Shown here one piece after another: positions 26,509 through 40,962 of a stretch of 64,000 nucleotides of DNA. Source of the DNA: Anaerolineae bacterium (lineage in GTDB: Bacteria > Chloroflexota > Anaerolineae > Anaerolineales > Anaerolineaceae). A program made the position numbers and the translations under genes. Location of the stretch: positions 62,001-126,000 of the forward strand of contig JABLXK010000003.1 of the NCBI GenBank assembly GCA_013178095.1. Reading direction: 5' to 3'. Below the pieces are notes generated by a model that saw nothing but the letters and a program-made list of their open reading frames with translations, was not told the DNA's origin and ran no database searches. Positions within the stretch are counted from its first letter, which is position 1. The number at the start of each line of letters is the position of its first letter.

Positions 26509-27579
26509 TCAGATCAATCCAAGCGCTTTGCGTTGTCTTTCATTAAAAAAACTTGCATAATCTTCAATGAAATAACACTTCCTGGAAAATTCACCGGATT
26601 CATCTACTGATTTAAATAGATCGGCCAGATACAAGCTGGAATCGCGGTCAATCGGCGTCCAGGTAATTAAATGAAACCCATCGGTATTTGCGATTATTGT
26701 ACTCAATTCCATCATCCAGAGAAGCGTACCGTCATTGCGGAAAAAAGGTACGGGGAAACCGATGGAGTTGCCGATATGTTGGTGTTCCTGTTGGATGGAA
26801 AGCTCCCAGATTTTTTGAAATTCAGGCGTTTCATTCAATAAATCGAGAATGGTCACCAATCTCTCATCTTCATTCACCAGTAGATTGGATACAGATGAAC
26901 GGAAGCGGATCATCTGCTTGATGTAGTATTCCTGAGCGTAGGGACCGCGGGTGCGGCTCATAGGGCTGTTTTGTATATGTTTTGGGATCCCGCCCATGCT
27001 GGAGTTCAATCTTTGCCAGCAGCCCCAATCTTTCAAATCGCTCTCTTTGTAACCAGCAAATGCCAGTTCGTAATGAGTAGTCGCGCGTAAACACCAGTAG
27101 CGGTCCATGACGAAGGCGCATAAAGGTTCCCGGCATAACTGATTCTTCCAGTCCGGATTGCTGGGAAGCCTGGTTTCGAGTTCACCATTGGCAACCTGCA
27201 GGTCGTGCAGGATCCTTTTCAATTGCAAACGGTTCTTGATGGGAATTTCGTTGTAAAGCTGAATGATCTTTTCAAGCTCGGAAGTTTCAATGATGCGGTG
27301 TTTACGATGGAGATGTTCTTTGAAAAACCATTGGACGACTGCAACCACCCGCTTGCCGGTTTCATCGTAAGTCTTGGCGCTGATCATCTTGGCTGATTCA
27401 TTGGCCGAGGTCCACTGTTGAAATGTTTTAGGCCCGATTTCCTCGACCAGACCTTCGGTTTGATTGATTTCATCCAATGCCGTCCTGCGCGAGATGCCGG
27501 ATTTTGTCAGCCAGTTATATAAAATTTCACCACTAACTTCGTCGTCAAAAATGAAAGCAGTCTTTCCATCCTTATCCAT
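26509..27579 (-). CDS. MmyB-like ligand-binding-domain protein, putative regulator
   Basis: Residues such as AFVMDRYWCLRATTHYELAFAGY and LNETPEFQKIWELSIQQEH resemble MmyB-type PAS ligand-binding regions; clear HTH not recognised. Confidence 0.4.
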   Translation of the reverse strand: MDKDGKTAFIFDDEVSGEILYNWLTKSGISRRTALDEINQTEGLVEEIGPKTFQQWTSANESAKMISAKTYDETGKRVVAVVQWFFKEHLHRKHRIIETSELEKIIQLYNEIPIKNRLQLKRILHDLQVANGELETRLPSNPDWKNQLCREPLCAFVMDRYWCLRATTHYELAFAGYKESDLKDWGCWQRLNSSMGGIPKHIQNSPMSRTRGPYAQEYYIKQMIRFRSSVSNLLVNEDERLVTILDLLNETPEFQKIWELSIQQEHQHIGNSIGFPVPFFRNDGTLLWMMELSTIIANTDGFHLITWTPIDRDSSLYLADLFKSVDESGEFSRKCYFIEDYASFFNERQRKALGLI

Positions 27580-27786
27580 GGTTCAATTCCTTTTCTAAAG
27601 AAGCTCCGCTACACAGAATAAATATTGACGATTTCTACCTGAAATTACTATATTAAGTATAGCAGAAATACCTAAATTAGGAATATTGAATAAAAATAGT
27701 TTCCGAAAGGAAGGTGATGTTATTCTATAACGATTTTGCCAATACTTCAATCTAAATAACCTGTAATATTAAAAAAGGAGCGAATC

Positions 27787-29343
27787 ATGAAAAAAATTGC
27801 TGTAATAGGGAGTAGCGGAGGACATTTGTTTGTTCTTGGAGGAAATAATCCCCAGGCGCTGCTGGAAGAAATTATTAATCAAGCCAAAGCGGCTTCGATC
27901 GAAGTCAGCCACATTGCATTCATTGCGGCTTCCACCAGCATGGACCATGTAACCGAGCAAACTGTCGGCACTTTATGGACCAAAGGCAAGGATGGCTTGC
28001 TGCCGAAATTTGAAGATAGATTGGAGAAAACGAACGACGAGGCAATAACAGAATGCAAGTTAATCGCGGACGCCATTCGCAAAGGCGAAGTGGATGGGTT
28101 GGTCATGGTCTCCGCTGATCCGAAAGGTATCAACGCTGAAGTACTGAAAGCTGCTACGGAAATGAAAATTCCGGTGGCTGGCACGGGTGGTAGTTCGATG
28201 GCGGCCGCTCGTTCGCTGGGTGCGAACGTGATCTCCTCTTCGGGCACGACCGGTTCAACCAACCGAACCAGGGCAGTCGGGTACGTTTCCGCGTTTGCTT
28301 CGGAATGGAAACAAAAATATACCCCGGTAATCGGAAAAACCGCGGAAGTGGATAGTGGGAATATCCTGAAAAGGATCCACTTGCGCAGCATCATGATGTC
28401 ATCGCTACCTGCTTTCATCGCCATGGCCTTGACCCTTGCGGTTGGCAATATCCCCTTCCTGAAGGAATCGGTCGGGCCGCTCTTTGACACATTGGTTGGT
28501 GCGCTGCCTATTGTTGTCGCGGTTGTAGCTGCCAAGCAGGTCTCCGGATTGGACGAAGTCGGTATTGTCGCCGGGGTTGTGGCTGGCGTTCTTTCGGTGA
28601 ATGGCGGCATTCTCGGCGGAATCGTAGGTGGTGTGGTTGCTGGAATTTTGGCCAGCTATTTGCTGCAATGGTCTTTCCGCATGCGCTTTCCGGCAACAAC
28701 CTCGAGCTTGGTGGCTGGCGCTTTTGGCGGTTTGGCTGGCGGTTTGTTGGTTTATTTCCTGCTGGCTCCGATCACTTTATGGGCCGGCAACTCGATTCGC
28801 CAATTGATCCAGGTTGCCCTTGATTTCAATGCCATCCTTGCCGGCGCCATTGCCGGATTGCTAATCTGGCCGGCGATCATTGGCGGCGTGTATCACGCAG
28901 CGATCCTTCCGATTGTCTTGCTTGAAATGGAGACTCAAGGGAACAGCTTCCTGGGCGCAGTGGATATGGTCGGTTTAGTGATGGTTTCCGCTGGGATCAC
29001 GCTGGCGAATATCATTGCTCCCAAGGTGAAAAGCGAAGCCTCAGTGGCTGCCCCTGGCTTTTTCGTGAACATGGTCTTCGGGACTTTCGTGGAAGCTGCC
29101 TACCCCTTCATGTTTTCGGATAAATGGGTATTCGCCCTGGCGCTCTTTTCCGCTATGGTCGGCGGAGCTTTCGTGGGATTCTTCAACGCTCGCGGTATGG
29201 GTTATCTACCAACTTTCGTTGCCCCAACCGTTTCTAATAATCCTTTCGGTTTTGCCGCATCCATGGTGATCGCATTGGTACTCTCCTGCGTCCTGACTAT
29301 CATCGTTAATAAGATGGCAAAGAAAAAAGAGACTGAAGCCTAG
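27787..29343 (+). CDS. PTS EIIC-like membrane transporter with a ~190-aa soluble N-terminal domain
   Basis: N-term MKKIAVIGSSGGHLFVLGG...VSADPKGIN...GTGGSSMAAARSLGANVISSSGTTGSTN; C-term multi-TM with GGILGGIVGGVVAGIL and SNNPFGFAASMVIALVLS, alignable by eye to the fructose EIIC at 39925. Confidence 0.65.
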   Translation: MKKIAVIGSSGGHLFVLGGNNPQALLEEIINQAKAASIEVSHIAFIAASTSMDHVTEQTVGTLWTKGKDGLLPKFEDRLEKTNDEAITECKLIADAIRKGEVDGLVMVSADPKGINAEVLKAATEMKIPVAGTGGSSMAAARSLGANVISSSGTTGSTNRTRAVGYVSAFASEWKQKYTPVIGKTAEVDSGNILKRIHLRSIMMSSLPAFIAMALTLAVGNIPFLKESVGPLFDTLVGALPIVVAVVAAKQVSGLDEVGIVAGVVAGVLSVNGGILGGIVGGVVAGILASYLLQWSFRMRFPATTSSLVAGAFGGLAGGLLVYFLLAPITLWAGNSIRQLIQVALDFNAILAGAIAGLLIWPAIIGGVYHAAILPIVLLEMETQGNSFLGAVDMVGLVMVSAGITLANIIAPKVKSEASVAAPGFFVNMVFGTFVEAAYPFMFSDKWVFALALFSAMVGGAFVGFFNARGMGYLPTFVAPTVSNNPFGFAASMVIALVLSCVLTIIVNKMAKKKETEA

Positions 29344-29379
29344 TCTCGCGTCAAAGAAACAAAAAGAAAAGAGGTAAAA

Positions 29380-30219
29380 ATGATCATCGGCGATATGAAA
29401 CAAAAAATGGAATTGGCCAGGAAAAAGGTTTTGAATGCCATTGAAGAACACCAAGGGACCACACTTCTAGCTACGGGTGTAACCGGCGACGATGCACGTC
29501 TTGCGCTTGCGGCAGTGCAAGCTGGGGCTCGCATGGTTGAACCTAATCACCCGGCGCTGGCATTGGCGCGCGGGTATAAAGGCGTGACTTCCATGCACGC
29601 CGCAGAGGAATTGCGCCATGAGATCACCATGGAGCAGATGGCGGAAGCCACCCGCGGCGTTCGCAACGTCGTCGGAAAAGATATTTACATCACCGTTGGC
29701 GCGCCGGGGACTTTTGCCGAAGTGATGCCGACCCCTCTCACTGAAGAGGGCGTTGTTTTGCTGGCAAAAGCAGGGGCGGACGGGTTGCATACCCATAAAG
29801 CTACGCTTGAGGATTTGAAAGATGTGGTCGACATTGCACACCGCAATGGATTGTTGGTTGATGCTTATATTGCCCATCCGGCGGATCGCCACTTGTTTGG
29901 CATCCCGTGCGCTACACCTATAGAAGTAGGCGATACAGCCAAGCGCATGCAGGATATCGGTGTCGACTTTGTCGGCCTGATGACCGGTATGAGTTATGAA
30001 GGGGTCAAAGCCGGGGAGATTGCCGATCCGGTGAAAGAACGCATCGAAGCATTGGTGAAATCCGTGACTGTACCTACCTTGGCCGAGGGCGGGATCAACC
30101 TGGATAATTTCAAGGCTTTCATGGGGACAGGCGTAAAAATCATTGTAGTTGGGACAGCTATCGATGATGTCGCCCGCAAAGCGGTCGATCAAGTAATTAA
30201 AACGCTGTTGCAGCACTAG
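29380..30219 (+). CDS. TIM-barrel (phosphate-binding type) protein of unknown specificity
   Basis: ADGLHTHKATLEDLKDVVDIA, DFVGLMTGMSYEGV, TLAEGGINLDN...IIVVGTAIDD barrel-like pattern; separated by 36 nt from the EIIC-like gene. Confidence 0.65.
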   Translation: MIIGDMKQKMELARKKVLNAIEEHQGTTLLATGVTGDDARLALAAVQAGARMVEPNHPALALARGYKGVTSMHAAEELRHEITMEQMAEATRGVRNVVGKDIYITVGAPGTFAEVMPTPLTEEGVVLLAKAGADGLHTHKATLEDLKDVVDIAHRNGLLVDAYIAHPADRHLFGIPCATPIEVGDTAKRMQDIGVDFVGLMTGMSYEGVKAGEIADPVKERIEALVKSVTVPTLAEGGINLDNFKAFMGTGVKIIVVGTAIDDVARKAVDQVIKTLLQH

Positions 30220-30235
30220 AAAAGATCAGCACGAA

Positions 30236-30271
30236 AAAAGAAGGAGGTTGGCTTTTCAACCTCCTTCTTTT
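30236..30271. terminator. Bidirectional intrinsic terminator
   Basis: AAAAGAAGGAGGTTG-GCTTTT-CAACCTCCTTCTTTT perfect 15-bp stem with A/T tails. Confidence 0.9.
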
Positions 30272-36102: not shown

Positions 36103-37101
36103 TTATCCCTTCGTGAATGCGAAAGATTTCGCCGGCAGGTCGTAATATTGCTTCAGTTCGCCATCCAGTTTCAGCAAAGAAATGGAAAAACCGGCCATTT
36201 CCTGAGAGGTGCAATAGGATCCAATCAGCGTGTCGTGAACAGTGATTTGCTTTTCCGCCAGCAAGGCGCGCACTTTGCGGTTGACGATCAGCAATTCCAT
36301 CATGGTAGTGGCGCCCAGGTTGTTGATCAACAGACAGACTTCATCGCCGGATTTAAAGGGCAGATCTTTGAGGATCAAGTCTGTCATGCGGCTGACCAAT
36401 TCGTCAGCCGGCATCATTTTTTCGCGGGATACACCCGCTTCGCCGTGCAATCCCATGCCGATCTCGATCTCGCCTTCGCCGATTGTGAAGGTAGGCTGAC
36501 CGGTTTCGGGTATGGAACCGGGGGCCAGCGCAACGCCCATTGAACGGGTGAGATCACGCGCTTTGGCAGCGACCCGATAGACTTCTTCCAGGCTGTCCAG
36601 TTTTGCCGCGGCTCCTCCGGCGATCTTGATCACAAACAGATCCCCGGCTATCCCGCGCCGATCGGTGATGCGTTCAAGCGGGGCGGAAGCCACATCGTCG
36701 TAAATCCGCACGGTTTTGGTGGCGATTCCTTCGCTTTCAGCCAATTCGGCGGCGATGTCGAAATTCATATTGTCGCCGGCATAATTTCCATATAAATACA
36801 GCACGCCCTTGCCCTGATCGAGCGCTTTCGTGGCTGCCAGGATTTGGTCGGGGGCAGGCGCCGCGAAGACGTTGCCGCTGACCGCGCCATCCGCCAGATT
36901 TTCGCCCACGAAACCGGCAAACAGCGGTTCGTGACCACTGCCGCCGCCGACCAGCAAACAAACCTTGCCGGGGCGGATTTCTGTTCGTTTAATCGCATTG
37001 CTGTTTTCAATTTTTTTTACATCCCCGTGGTATGCCAGGATCAAACCATCCGCGGTTTCAACGACAACATCTTTGGGATTATTTATGACCTTTTTTATCA
37101 T
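36103..37101 (-). CDS. dhaK: Dihydroxyacetone-kinase-family K subunit (DhaK-like)
   Basis: MIKKVINNPKDVV, LLVGGGSGHEPLFAGFVG, GMGLHGEAG (substrate-binding His); start 37101 preferred. Confidence 0.92.
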   Translation of the reverse strand: MIKKVINNPKDVVVETADGLILAYHGDVKKIENSNAIKRTEIRPGKVCLLVGGGSGHEPLFAGFVGENLADGAVSGNVFAAPAPDQILAATKALDQGKGVLYLYGNYAGDNMNFDIAAELAESEGIATKTVRIYDDVASAPLERITDRRGIAGDLFVIKIAGGAAAKLDSLEEVYRVAAKARDLTRSMGVALAPGSIPETGQPTFTIGEGEIEIGMGLHGEAGVSREKMMPADELVSRMTDLILKDLPFKSGDEVCLLINNLGATTMMELLIVNRKVRALLAEKQITVHDTLIGSYCTSQEMAGFSISLLKLDGELKQYYDLPAKSFAFTKG

Positions 37102-37130
37102 GGCGCGCGTTTCCTTTTTTGAGGGTAATT

Positions 37131-37964
37131 CTAACATTCCGCGACGATCACCCGCGGCCCTTTTTGCTCGATCTGTGCAATGAAATCCCTGGGGGCGCCG
37201 GAATCGGTGACCAGGATGTCCATGGCATCGATGGGTGCGACCGGCATCAGGCAGATACGGTTCAGTTTCGAGTGATCGGCAACGATGATGAGCTGGTCGC
37301 TGACCTCGATCATCTTACGTTTGACAGTCGAGACCGCTGGAACAGATGGGTTGGCAGCCGTCAGCCCCTTATCCAGTGATATGCCATCGATCCCCAGGAT
37401 GGTCTTTTGAGGATGGAATTGGGCCACGAACTCGTCGGTCATATATCCAACGCACACCCCATGATCTTTCTGCGCCAACCCGCCCAGCGAATACAAGTTG
37501 ATGTTGGGGTTATACAGAAAGTCAGGGATCAGGATGATCGAATTGGTGATGACCGTCAGGTTTTTTTTGTCGGCCAGATATTTGGCCACCATCTTGGTGG
37601 TGCTGCCGCCGTCGATCATGATGGTGTCGCCATCATTAATCAGGGAGGCCGTTTTACGGGCGATGGCATCTTTCTCTTTCTGGAGGTGGGTGATGCGATC
37701 GTTAATGGAATCCAGGTCGATCACGACTTTATTGTCCGTGATCTCGTCTTTCAGGATGGCGCCCCCGTGCGTGCGCAAAATCAGGTTGCGCGTCTCGAGC
37801 TCAGCCAGGTCCAGGCGGACGCTGGATTCAGAAATATTGAATTGTTCAGCAAGATCAACGACGAATACTTTATGTTTTTCCTGGATGATGCGGTACATCA
37901 TTGCCAGGCGTTCTTCCCTGAATATTTTCTTTGAATCATCCATTTTTGAATCCTCGTCAATCAT
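37131..37964 (-). CDS. DeoR/GlpR family transcriptional regulator
   Basis: FNISESSVRLDLAELETRNLILRTHGGAIL, DGGSTTKMVAKYL. Confidence 0.92.
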   Translation of the reverse strand: MIDEDSKMDDSKKIFREERLAMMYRIIQEKHKVFVVDLAEQFNISESSVRLDLAELETRNLILRTHGGAILKDEITDNKVVIDLDSINDRITHLQKEKDAIARKTASLINDGDTIMIDGGSTTKMVAKYLADKKNLTVITNSIILIPDFLYNPNINLYSLGGLAQKDHGVCVGYMTDEFVAQFHPQKTILGIDGISLDKGLTAANPSVPAVSTVKRKMIEVSDQLIIVADHSKLNRICLMPVAPIDAMDILVTDSGAPRDFIAQIEQKGPRVIVAEC

Positions 37965-38044
37965 TTAATGCTTGTTTTGACTATCCTATTGAATTCTACA
38001 GAAATTTTTATCATTAAACAATAAGAATTACCTATTAAAACGTA

Positions 38045-38066
38045 CGATTATTATAACATATAATCG
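38045..38066. promoter_or_regulatory. Palindromic operator candidate in divergent promoter region
   Basis: CGATTAT-N8-ATAATCG. Confidence 0.45.
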
Positions 38067-38095
38067 CAAATAGCAACTAATGCTCAATAAAACTA

Positions 38096-38124
38096 TTGAC
38101 ATTTATTCGCATTTATTGTAATAT
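38096..38124 (+). promoter_or_regulatory. Sigma70-type promoter for aldolase-PTS operon
   Basis: TTGACA - 17 nt - TAATAT. Confidence 0.7.
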
Positions 38125-38166
38125 GTGATTGATTTGACCAATTTATTATCTCAGGAGAAATTCGCA

Positions 38167-38958
38167 ATGTCTCACATAGGAAAACAGGTACGCTTAAAAA
38201 GAATGTTGAACCCGAAAAGCAATAATGCAATCGTGGTTGCGATGGATCATGCGGCTGTGCTCGGGCCGATACCCGGCATTATCAACCCGGTTGAAACCGT
38301 TAAAACGCTGGCAAGCCACCATCCGGACACGTTTTTCATGCCCAACGGCGTGATCAAGCAGACTTATACCCATTTCGTAGAAAACGATATTCCGTTCATG
38401 GTTTCAATTGACACCTGCGTTGAAATGGGACCGGAACCGGATTATTTCATGCTGTCTGACAGCGTTATGCACGCAGTCCAATTGGGTGCTTCCGGTGTTT
38501 CCATGCACGTAATGGTGGGCGCTAAAAAGACCAGCGACATGCTGAAAGGCCTGGCAAAGGTGGCGGAAGACTGCGATAATTTGGGCATGCCTTTGATGGC
38601 GATCATGTACCCATCCGGTTTCGACAACAACCATGATGTGAAACACGTCAAATGGGCGGCCCGCATCGGCGCTGAATTGGGCGCGGATATCGTTAAGACC
38701 TATTTCACTGGCTCCGTTGAAACCTTCAAAGAAGTTGTGGATTCCTGCCCCATCCCGGTGATGTTGTCAGGCGGCCAGTTAACGGACGACCCCAGAGATT
38801 TCCTGACGGTACTGAAAGCGGTGGTGGATGCCGGCGGGCGCGGCTGCGCGGTCGGACGCAATTTGTGGCAATACAAGGAACCTGTCAAGATGCTGGAAGC
38901 CATCAAATTAATCATGCACGAAAAAGCTTCAGTTGATCAGGCATTAAAAGCTCTCTAG
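38167..38958 (+). CDS. DhnA/LacD-like class I aldolase
   Basis: IVVAMDHAAVLGPIPG, GADIVKTYFTGS (Schiff-base Lys region), AVGRNLWQY; start 38167 with AGGAG RBS. Confidence 0.82.
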   Translation: MSHIGKQVRLKRMLNPKSNNAIVVAMDHAAVLGPIPGIINPVETVKTLASHHPDTFFMPNGVIKQTYTHFVENDIPFMVSIDTCVEMGPEPDYFMLSDSVMHAVQLGASGVSMHVMVGAKKTSDMLKGLAKVAEDCDNLGMPLMAIMYPSGFDNNHDVKHVKWAARIGAELGADIVKTYFTGSVETFKEVVDSCPIPVMLSGGQLTDDPRDFLTVLKAVVDAGGRGCAVGRNLWQYKEPVKMLEAIKLIMHEKASVDQALKAL

Positions 38959-38982
38959 CCGAAACGATTTGCCCAGAAGATC

Positions 38983-39468
38983 ATGGAAGACCAATTTGTG
39001 ATTTCTCAGGTAATTCGAGCGGATACTGTTGATCTGTATCTGAAAGGGATCAGGGATAAACGGCATCTCCTGGACACATTGATTGAAAAATTCTATGCTG
39101 CTGGCGTGATTGAATCTCGTGAGGAATTTTTAAAGGCGATCTACGAACGTGAGGCATTAGGCCCTACCTACATGGACAACTTCATCGCTATTCCCCATGG
39201 GAAGAGTAAAACCGTAAAGACCCCTGCTGTCGCTTTTGGACGCTGCGAAGAAGGGGTCTATTATGATACCCAATTGGGCGGCGGAATTGTTAAATTGGTT
39301 TTTATGCTGGCGATCCCCGGGGAAATGAGCGCGGAGCAATACATCCGTGTACTCTCCCGTCTGGCGAGATTGTTGATCTATGAAGATTTCATCCATGATC
39401 TACATCAGGCGCAGTCTTACGCGGATGTACTGGCTGCGATCAAAGAAGGTGAAAAGAAATTATCCTGA
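38983..39468 (+). CDS. PTS fructose/mannitol-type EIIA
   Basis: MDNFIAIPHGKSKTVKTPAVAFGR with phospho-His. Confidence 0.9.
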   Translation: MEDQFVISQVIRADTVDLYLKGIRDKRHLLDTLIEKFYAAGVIESREEFLKAIYEREALGPTYMDNFIAIPHGKSKTVKTPAVAFGRCEEGVYYDTQLGGGIVKLVFMLAIPGEMSAEQYIRVLSRLARLLIYEDFIHDLHQAQSYADVLAAIKEGEKKLS

Positions 39469-39514
39469 AACTACAGGGTTGATTGATTTATCTTTCTAAA
39501 CAGGAGTTGATCTT

Positions 39515-39826
39515 ATGAAAATAGTAGCAGTAACATCTTGCGCGACTGGAATTGCCCATTCCTATATGGCAGCCGAAGCGTTAAAAAAAGCTGTCAAGGA
39601 TACCGGGGATGAAATCAAAGTAGAAATCCAGGGCGCCATGGGCATCGAAAACCGCCTTACTGAAGAAGAAATTGCTGAGGCGGACCTGGTGATCTGGGCG
39701 GTAGACGTGGGTGTACGCGAGAAAGACCGCTTCCAAAATAAGAACGTCATCCAGTTTGGCCCGTACGAGACGATCTGGGACGCAAAGAAAACTATCATAG
39801 AAGCCAAGCAGAAAGCAGGCTTATAG
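39515..39826 (+). CDS. PTS fructose-type EIIB
   Basis: MKIVAVTSCATGIAHSYMAAEAL with phospho-Cys. Confidence 0.93.
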   Translation: MKIVAVTSCATGIAHSYMAAEALKKAVKDTGDEIKVEIQGAMGIENRLTEEEIAEADLVIWAVDVGVREKDRFQNKNVIQFGPYETIWDAKKTIIEAKQKAGL

Positions 39827-39924
39827 AAATTCAGCTTACGTGGATTCAAAAGAAAGGAGACAGACTGTTATCGAAAAATCTTGTTATCGGTTGTTTTAAT
39901 TCATTTTGAAAAAGGAGAAATGAA

Positions 39925-40962
39925 ATGGCAAATAAAGAGTCTTTCTTTGGTGATGTCCGGAAGCACCTGATGACCGGTGTTTCCTACATGATCCCGTTTG
40001 TCGTTCCTGGCGGTATCCTCATCGCGGTTGCCTTTGCGATGGGCGGTATCTATGTGTTCAATACTCCCGGTTTTGCAGCTGACATGTTCGGCTGGGGCAA
40101 GGTCGCTTTCGGCCTGATGGTGCCCGCGCTGGCTGGTTTCATTGCCTACTCAATCGCGGATCGCCCCGGTATCGCCCTGGGCTTCGTGGCTGGTATGCTG
40201 GCCAATAACCAGGGATCGGGCTTCCTGGGCGGCATGATCGGCGGTTTGTTCGCCGGTTACGTTGCCAAAGCCATCAAGCAGATCAAACTGCCCGCCTCGA
40301 TGGTATCCTTGATGCCCGTTCTGGTGATTCCTTTATTTGGCACCTTTATCGTTGGTTTGGGCATGACCTACGTTCTCGGCGGCCCGGTTACCTGGTTGAA
40401 TCAGGCCATGACCACTGCTCTGAACAATTTGAGCAGCGGCGGCAAGATCATCCTGGGCCTGGTGCAGGGCGCCATGCTGGCCTTCGATATGGGCGGCCCG
40501 GTTAACAAGGCAGCCTATGCGTTCGCGCTGGCTTCCGCGGATGCCAACAACTGGGGTCCGATGGCGGCTAACTTCGTCGCTTCCATGTGCCCGCCGGCCG
40601 GTATCGCCCTGGCTTTGGTCCTCTTCAAAGACAGATGGACCAAGGTCGAGCGTGAAGGCGTCAGCGGCTGCGTGATTGGCGGCCTGGCGATGATCACGGA
40701 ATTCGCCATCCCCTACGCTGCTGCGGATCCGCTGCACGTGCTGCCCGCGACCATGGTTGGCTCGGCTGTCGGCGCTGCGTTGTCGTATGTCTTCGATCTG
40801 ACCCTGACAGCTCCTCACGGCGGCCTGTTCGTGATCATGCTGGCCAACAAACCCCTGGTTTGGATGCTGGTCTTCGCGGTCGCGATCGTGGTCACCGCTG
40901 CCATGTTATTCGTTCTGAAACCAAAAGTCACGGAAAGCGAAGAAAAAGCTTTATCCCTGTAA
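39925..40962 (+). CDS. PTS fructose-type EIIC
   Basis: Multi-TM; GSGFLGGMIGGLFAGYV, FDMGGPVNKAAYAF, ITEFAIPYAAADP. Confidence 0.93.
   Translation: MANKESFFGDVRKHLMTGVSYMIPFVVPGGILIAVAFAMGGIYVFNTPGFAADMFGWGKVAFGLMVPALAGFIAYSIADRPGIALGFVAGMLANNQGSGFLGGMIGGLFAGYVAKAIKQIKLPASMVSLMPVLVIPLFGTFIVGLGMTYVLGGPVTWLNQAMTTALNNLSSGGKIILGLVQGAMLAFDMGGPVNKAAYAFALASADANNWGPMAANFVASMCPPAGIALALVLFKDRWTKVEREGVSGCVIGGLAMITEFAIPYAAADPLHVLPATMVGSAVGAALSYVFDLTLTAPHGGLFVIMLANKPLVWMLVFAVAIVVTAAMLFVLKPKVTESEEKALSL

Follow-up and report, generated by a model that had tools for sequence, protein, structure and literature searches.

EIIC proteins are known as components of the PEP phosphorelay (PTS), and the locus described here raises the question of whether a protein of this type can work outside that relay. 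The locus lies in a 64,000-nucleotide stretch of DNA (the window) from an Anaerolineae bacterium with a genome of 2.94 Mb, and it encodes an EIIC-type membrane protein with a soluble N-terminal domain (T), a TIM-barrel protein (B), and a divergently transcribed protein (R). An earlier note on this DNA had placed the three reading frames exactly where we find them (Table 1) and had proposed that T and B form a compact import-and-process system. Pfam scans of T and its neighbors in the window (R, B, a metallophosphoesterase gene, and a xanthine-dehydrogenase-like gene) revealed no EIIA or EIIB adjoining T, in agreement with the note. The strong terminator that it had placed after B is readable as a hairpin (GAAGGAGGTTG-GCTTTT-CAACCTCCTTC-TTTT). 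A sigma70-like promoter in the R-T intergenic region is shared, and ATTGAC followed by a TATA-like box occurs again 5' of T in related genomes; no clear operator was found in this intergenic region.

Table 1. Features of the T-B locus, in window coordinates.
Feature	Position	Strand	Basis
T, EIIC-type membrane protein (518 aa) with an N-terminal soluble domain	27787..29343	+	ORF, homology, model
T soluble N-domain, residues 1-185, Rossmann/flavodoxin-like alpha/beta with beta-hairpin insertion	27787..28341	+	model, conservation
T EIIC-like membrane domain, residues ~197-518	28375..29340	+	conservation, model, profile matches
B, TIM-barrel protein (279 aa) related to PDB 4ml9	29380..30219	+	homology
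R, 356-aa divergent protein, unrecognized family, candidate regulator	26509..27579	-	ORF, linkage to T-B
Predicted sigma70-like promoter of T-B, TTGACG-N18-TATATT	27625..27654	+	sequence
Predicted intrinsic terminator 3' of B, 11-bp stem, 6-nt loop, T4	30240..30271	+	sequence

A genome-wide scan for T yielded 171 relatives, 80 of which were kept; its nearest named relatives belong to the Anaerolineaceae, and no relative was found on plasmids. T is 51-79% identical across 78 relatives and B is 56-71% identical across 28. Because both proteins are conserved and the gene order is constant where both occur, R, T, and B are genuine genes and not chance ORFs. No Pfam or NCBIfam family is reached at its cut-off by either T or B; other collections may file T under a name of its own.

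By sequence comparison, the membrane half of T is homologous to PTS EIIC of the glucose/beta-glucoside/fructose type. Profile-profile alignment (hhalign) with three fructose-type EIICs of the same genome, including the one in the window, spanned 298 columns at a probability of 96.7% (E 4.1e-10) and brought the motif pairs GGVYHAA/GGPVNKAA and VEAAYPF/ITEFAIPY into register. The AlphaFold2 model of full-length T (pLDDT 86.5) matched Escherichia coli PtsG (E 1.6e-6) and the Vibrio cholerae glucose IIC (E 4.7e-4) in Foldseek searches. Together, the two comparisons confirm an EIIC alignment that the earlier note had made by eye. Three residues of the membrane domain are invariant in 78 sequences: H370, located within GGVYHAAILP, E380, and E436, located within FGTFVEAAYPFMF and aligned with the glutamate of the fructose EIIC ITE motif. 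Pfam detected nothing in the T protein of the window, PTS_EIIC (PF02378) included; across the family, this model matched 22 of 79 members (best E 1.3e-6), and its gathering cut-off was not reached. Among NCBIfam EIIC models, those for beta-glucoside (TIGR01995), sucrose, and glucose transporters matched 55, 51, and 22 of the 79 members, respectively (best E 5.3e-18), and the fructose model matched fewer. The weak Pfam and NCBIfam matches lie below curated cut-offs and were used only in aggregate, in which sense the C-terminal half does match EIIC families across its relatives. The likeness to fructose EIIC that had been noted is thus real as an alignment, but the family as a whole stands nearest to the beta-glucoside, sucrose, and glucose models.

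T therefore shares with PTS EIIC (TIGR01995, TIGR01996, TIGR00852, PF02378, and the PtsG structures) the membrane fold, profile homology over the whole length, and two motifs, GG..(H/K)AA and the conserved Glu motif that lines up with ITE. Unlike PTS EIIC, it stays below the Pfam PTS_EIIC cut-off, carries an N-domain of its own, and occurs in genomes that are free of Enzyme I and HPr. It has the EIIC-type membrane domain of an Enzyme II complex, but no EIIA or EIIB with a phosphorylatable His or Cys is fused to it or encoded alongside.

The N-terminal part of T had been described as a soluble, Rossmann-like domain of about 190 residues, and structure prediction bears this out. When modeled in isolation, the domain (pLDDT 93.7, pTM 0.91) folds into five parallel strands that alternate with helices, strand 2 being followed by a beta-hairpin. 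Its invariant positions are GSSGG (8-12), D53, S109/D111/N116, GTGG (132-135), SGTTG (152-156), and R162, together with L14, G18, G19, Q32, N83, and G145. Most of these residues (of the GSSGG and SGTTG motifs, S9-G12 and S152-T155), the latter six being the exceptions, come directly after the C-terminal end of a strand in the model, and this edge of the sheet is the usual ligand edge of such alpha/beta folds. No Cys or His is conserved in the domain among 78 sequences (Cys columns <32% and His columns <37% of members), and hence a PTS phosphoryl acceptor is absent. A PDB fold search found nothing close, the best matches being type II dehydroquinases (E 1.4e-3, TM ~0.45). The domain is accordingly not a standard EIIA or EIIB, as the note had anticipated. 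Peripla_BP_4 (PF13407) matched it in 22 of 79 members (best E 1.5e-6), over at most ~80 residues, and the best score seen was 28.4 bits (residues 68-147 only) versus a cut-off of 35.1. T also has no signal peptide, the modeled chain beginning at strand 1, and a true periplasmic binding protein could likewise be ruled out. The Peripla_BP_4 lobe, the type II dehydroquinases, and the RpiB-like flavodoxin folds share with the N-domain their general three-layer alpha/beta topology but differ from it in the respects just given. In a search of 546 genomes (399 Bacillota and 147 of the Anaerolineaceae family), all 15 N-domain matches lay in frames of EIIC length or in frames truncated at a contig end or by a frameshift; as far as searched, the domain is private to the T family.

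These features bear on what the domain may do. It may, as the earlier note had suggested, replace PTS phosphorylation, and two readings of the domain can be compared. In one, the domain is catalytic (kinase- or isomerase-like) and modifies the entering solute, making T a one-protein group-translocation system. The invariant polar loops at one sheet edge would suit such a role, as would the weak matches of phosphofructokinase models to single members and the combination of a partner, B, that looks phosphosugar-specific with a cassette that has no kinase. The domain has, however, neither a conserved Lys nor a typical nucleotide-binding motif in the 78 sequences, and its fold matches are generic, so we regard a catalytic N-domain as quite unlikely. 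We favor a ligand-binding domain, in which the cytosolic N-domain would hold or sense the solute, or a ligand derived from it, at the C-terminal edge of the beta-sheet and thereby act as a trap, a gate, or a modifying device.

The dependence of T on the PTS was assessed by surveying Enzyme I and HPr in T-bearing genomes. Enzyme I was found above its curated cut-off in 43 of 49 such genomes but not in the other six; HPr was likewise missing from five of these six, and matches were obtained in the positive control and in close relatives. None of the five genomes without Enzyme I and HPr encodes a protein at the PTS_EIIC cut-off. The sub-threshold PTS_EIIC matches in three of the five fall in frames of T length (528-549 aa), and the T proteins of Enzyme I-less genomes score 23-27 bits versus the cut-off of 30.7. 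The clearest case is Longilinea arvoryzae KOME-1 (G425/G490), an isolate assembled in two contigs and 97% complete, which is free of Enzyme I and HPr and encodes R, T, and B, its T being 74% identical to that of the window. The absence of Enzyme I was also confirmed in a second T genome (G985, 94% complete). The remaining Enzyme I-negative T genomes are drafts, in which single absences weigh less. The occurrence of T in genomes without both proteins supports the earlier guess of PTS independence. Most T genomes, including that of the window, do have Enzyme I and HPr, so a link to the PTS may exist there.

The same survey allows us to weigh the possibility that T works as a PTS EIIC with borrowed EIIA and EIIB proteins from other loci of the genome, its N-domain serving as an accessory docking domain. 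The retention of the EIIC His/Glu motifs and the prevalence of Enzyme I among T genomes are compatible with borrowing, as is the presence in the window of a genuine fructose EIIA (38983) and EIIC (39925), situated ~10 kb from T. Yet L. arvoryzae keeps T along with R and B where there is no Enzyme I, HPr, or PTS_EIIC-level protein to cooperate with, and the other Enzyme I-less T genomes agree with it. We consider borrowing unlikely. The fructose genes are part of an ordinary PTS-type cluster (36103-40962) that also encodes a Dak1-domain kinase, a DeoR regulator, and a DeoC/LacD-family aldolase.

B proved to be a full-length homologue of PDB entry 4ml9 (phmmer E 1.5e-111, profile E 7.2e-147), which is named 'Uncharacterized protein' and which we take to be a structural-genomics protein of Sebaldella termitidis. 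The C-terminal phosphate-site motif of B reads AEGGIN...VVGTAID, and weak matches to ThiE, HPS, NanE, HisA, and class II FBP-aldolase models fall mainly in this region, within the C-terminal third of the protein. B resembles 3-hexulose-6-P synthase, NanE, ThiE, and HisA/HisF where the barrel forms its C-terminal phosphate site, but it is far below the family cut-offs (28.7 bits versus 189 for the NanE model and 23.0 versus 200 for HPS) and has invariant motifs of its own (EPNHPA, GLMTGMSYEG, and H.HK). The assignment of B as an aldolase of the KDGP/DgaF type, as known in the glucosaminate operon, was rejected since B has no such Pfam match. The natural inference from the phosphate site is that the substrate of B would be phosphorylated; no kinase for such a ligand is visibly encoded in the cassette.

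T-B pairs are spread over at least five phyla, with examples from Chloroflexota, Bacillota, Spirochaetota, Mycoplasmatota, and Yersinia. Of the 79 T loci, 39 have B directly 3' of T and 40 have no B. A search for B anywhere in the genome found none in 23 T-only genomes; this search was run without a positive control of its own, and in a separate run the B profile matched in three T-B genomes. When B was used as the query, it was detected in six of 101 relatives and three of 399 Bacillota genomes, with T adjacent in all nine loci. Given that B adjoins T in nine of nine independent loci while T is often free of B, B depends on T and not vice versa, and with half of the T loci lacking B the function of T is not defined by its partner. 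On the T tree, the presence of B changes ~12 times, at least nine of these changes being forced by well-supported branches. The compact pair proposed earlier is therefore conserved across phyla, but it is not obligate.

Regulators adjoin T in 34 of the 39 B-containing loci (GntR/UTRA in 15, DeoR in 10, and R in nine) versus none of the 40 B-free loci. R itself was detected in four of 61 genomes (that of the window and 60 relatives), once in each and always beside T-B, and it was found only in Anaerolineaceae. It matches nothing in Pfam and nothing significantly in the PDB, and it could not be assigned to a known regulator family; a suspected likeness to an MmyB-like ligand domain found no confirmation. 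We call R a candidate regulator because of its position and because regulators take its place elsewhere. The divergent gene, a possible ligand-sensing regulator in the earlier note, is strictly linked to T-B; a DNA-binding or ligand domain was not recognized in it. In Pelolinea submarina MO-CFX1 (L012:6859-8408 / L025:8001-9550), T is frameshifted near residues 420-440 and B and R are intact, which reflects either recent decay or a sequencing error.

The loci in which T stands alone with varied neighbors could also be read as those of a sensor, that is, an EIIC-like receptor that signals through its N-domain and is not a transporter; the partial resemblance of the Rossmann-like domain to sugar-binding receptors, given by the sub-threshold Peripla_BP_4 matches, points in the same direction. 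Against this, T has no output or DNA-binding domain and is repeatedly paired with an enzyme and catabolic-type regulators, and we think a sensor very improbable. Among T-only loci, T adjoins paired DUF711 and ACT-domain genes in Saliterribacillus, Gracilibacillus, and Aerococcus (L031, L061, and L072), and two of these three loci also have a HAD phosphatase gene nearby. In Spirochaetaceae MAGs (L028, L029, L030, L034, and L036), T is followed by a gene that by eye resembles FemX/FemAB-type transferases.

Another set of neighbors provides a lead on the substrate of T that is suggestive only. The hisB gene (IGPD, PF00475) is close to T in seven loci. A Lachnospiraceae MAG (L055, 5851-12954) has the order hisG-hisD-T-B-GntR-hisB-hisA/I, related arrangements occur in L043, L066, and L088, T-B-GntR-hisB is seen in L038 and L058 with other his genes not in view, and a Treponema MAG (L076) has hisG-hisB-T-hisA/I. 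T thus lies within or beside histidine-biosynthesis genes in at least two T lineages, and linkage to hisB changes ~4 times on the T tree, at least three of these changes being forced. Most T loci have no link to histidine genes.

From what can be read in the sequences (EIIC homology, no phosphoryl-acceptor residues, occurrence without Enzyme I and HPr, T-B adjacency, and dedicated regulators), we consider it reasonably probable that T is a PTS-independent EIIC-type permease with a ligand-binding N-domain, that B acts on a phosphorylated derivative of its substrate, and that R, GntR/UTRA, or DeoR proteins exert control. The EIIC-type domain would carry a sugar-like solute inward without the aid of Enzyme I, HPr, EIIA, or EIIB. 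B, as a TIM-barrel isomerase, epimerase, or aldolase, would then act on a phosphorylated compound derived from that solute, and the pair would be controlled by R in Anaerolineaceae and by GntR/UTRA or DeoR elsewhere. With the pair present even in bacteria that have no PTS, uptake through the T-B system would probably follow a route so far undescribed. In the open-access literature, nothing relevant was found on 4ml9, on orphan EIICs, or on EIIC in Longilinea. More tentatively, T may descend from EIIC as a self-contained protein free of the PTS, its new N-domain linking the entry of a sugar to capture or chemical modification, with T-B forming an import-and-process module of several phyla that sometimes sits within histidine-biosynthesis clusters.

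If this reading is correct, a relay-free EIIC lineage would mean that the EIIC fold also serves as a carrier, either of the ordinary kind or with a different coupling, and T would be a natural system in which transport is separated from phosphorylation in EIIC. A function would likewise become attached to the orphan solved structure 4ml9 through its constant partner T. Where T is named generically as a 'PTS sugar transporter', the name would be misleading in metabolic models of organisms that have no PTS.
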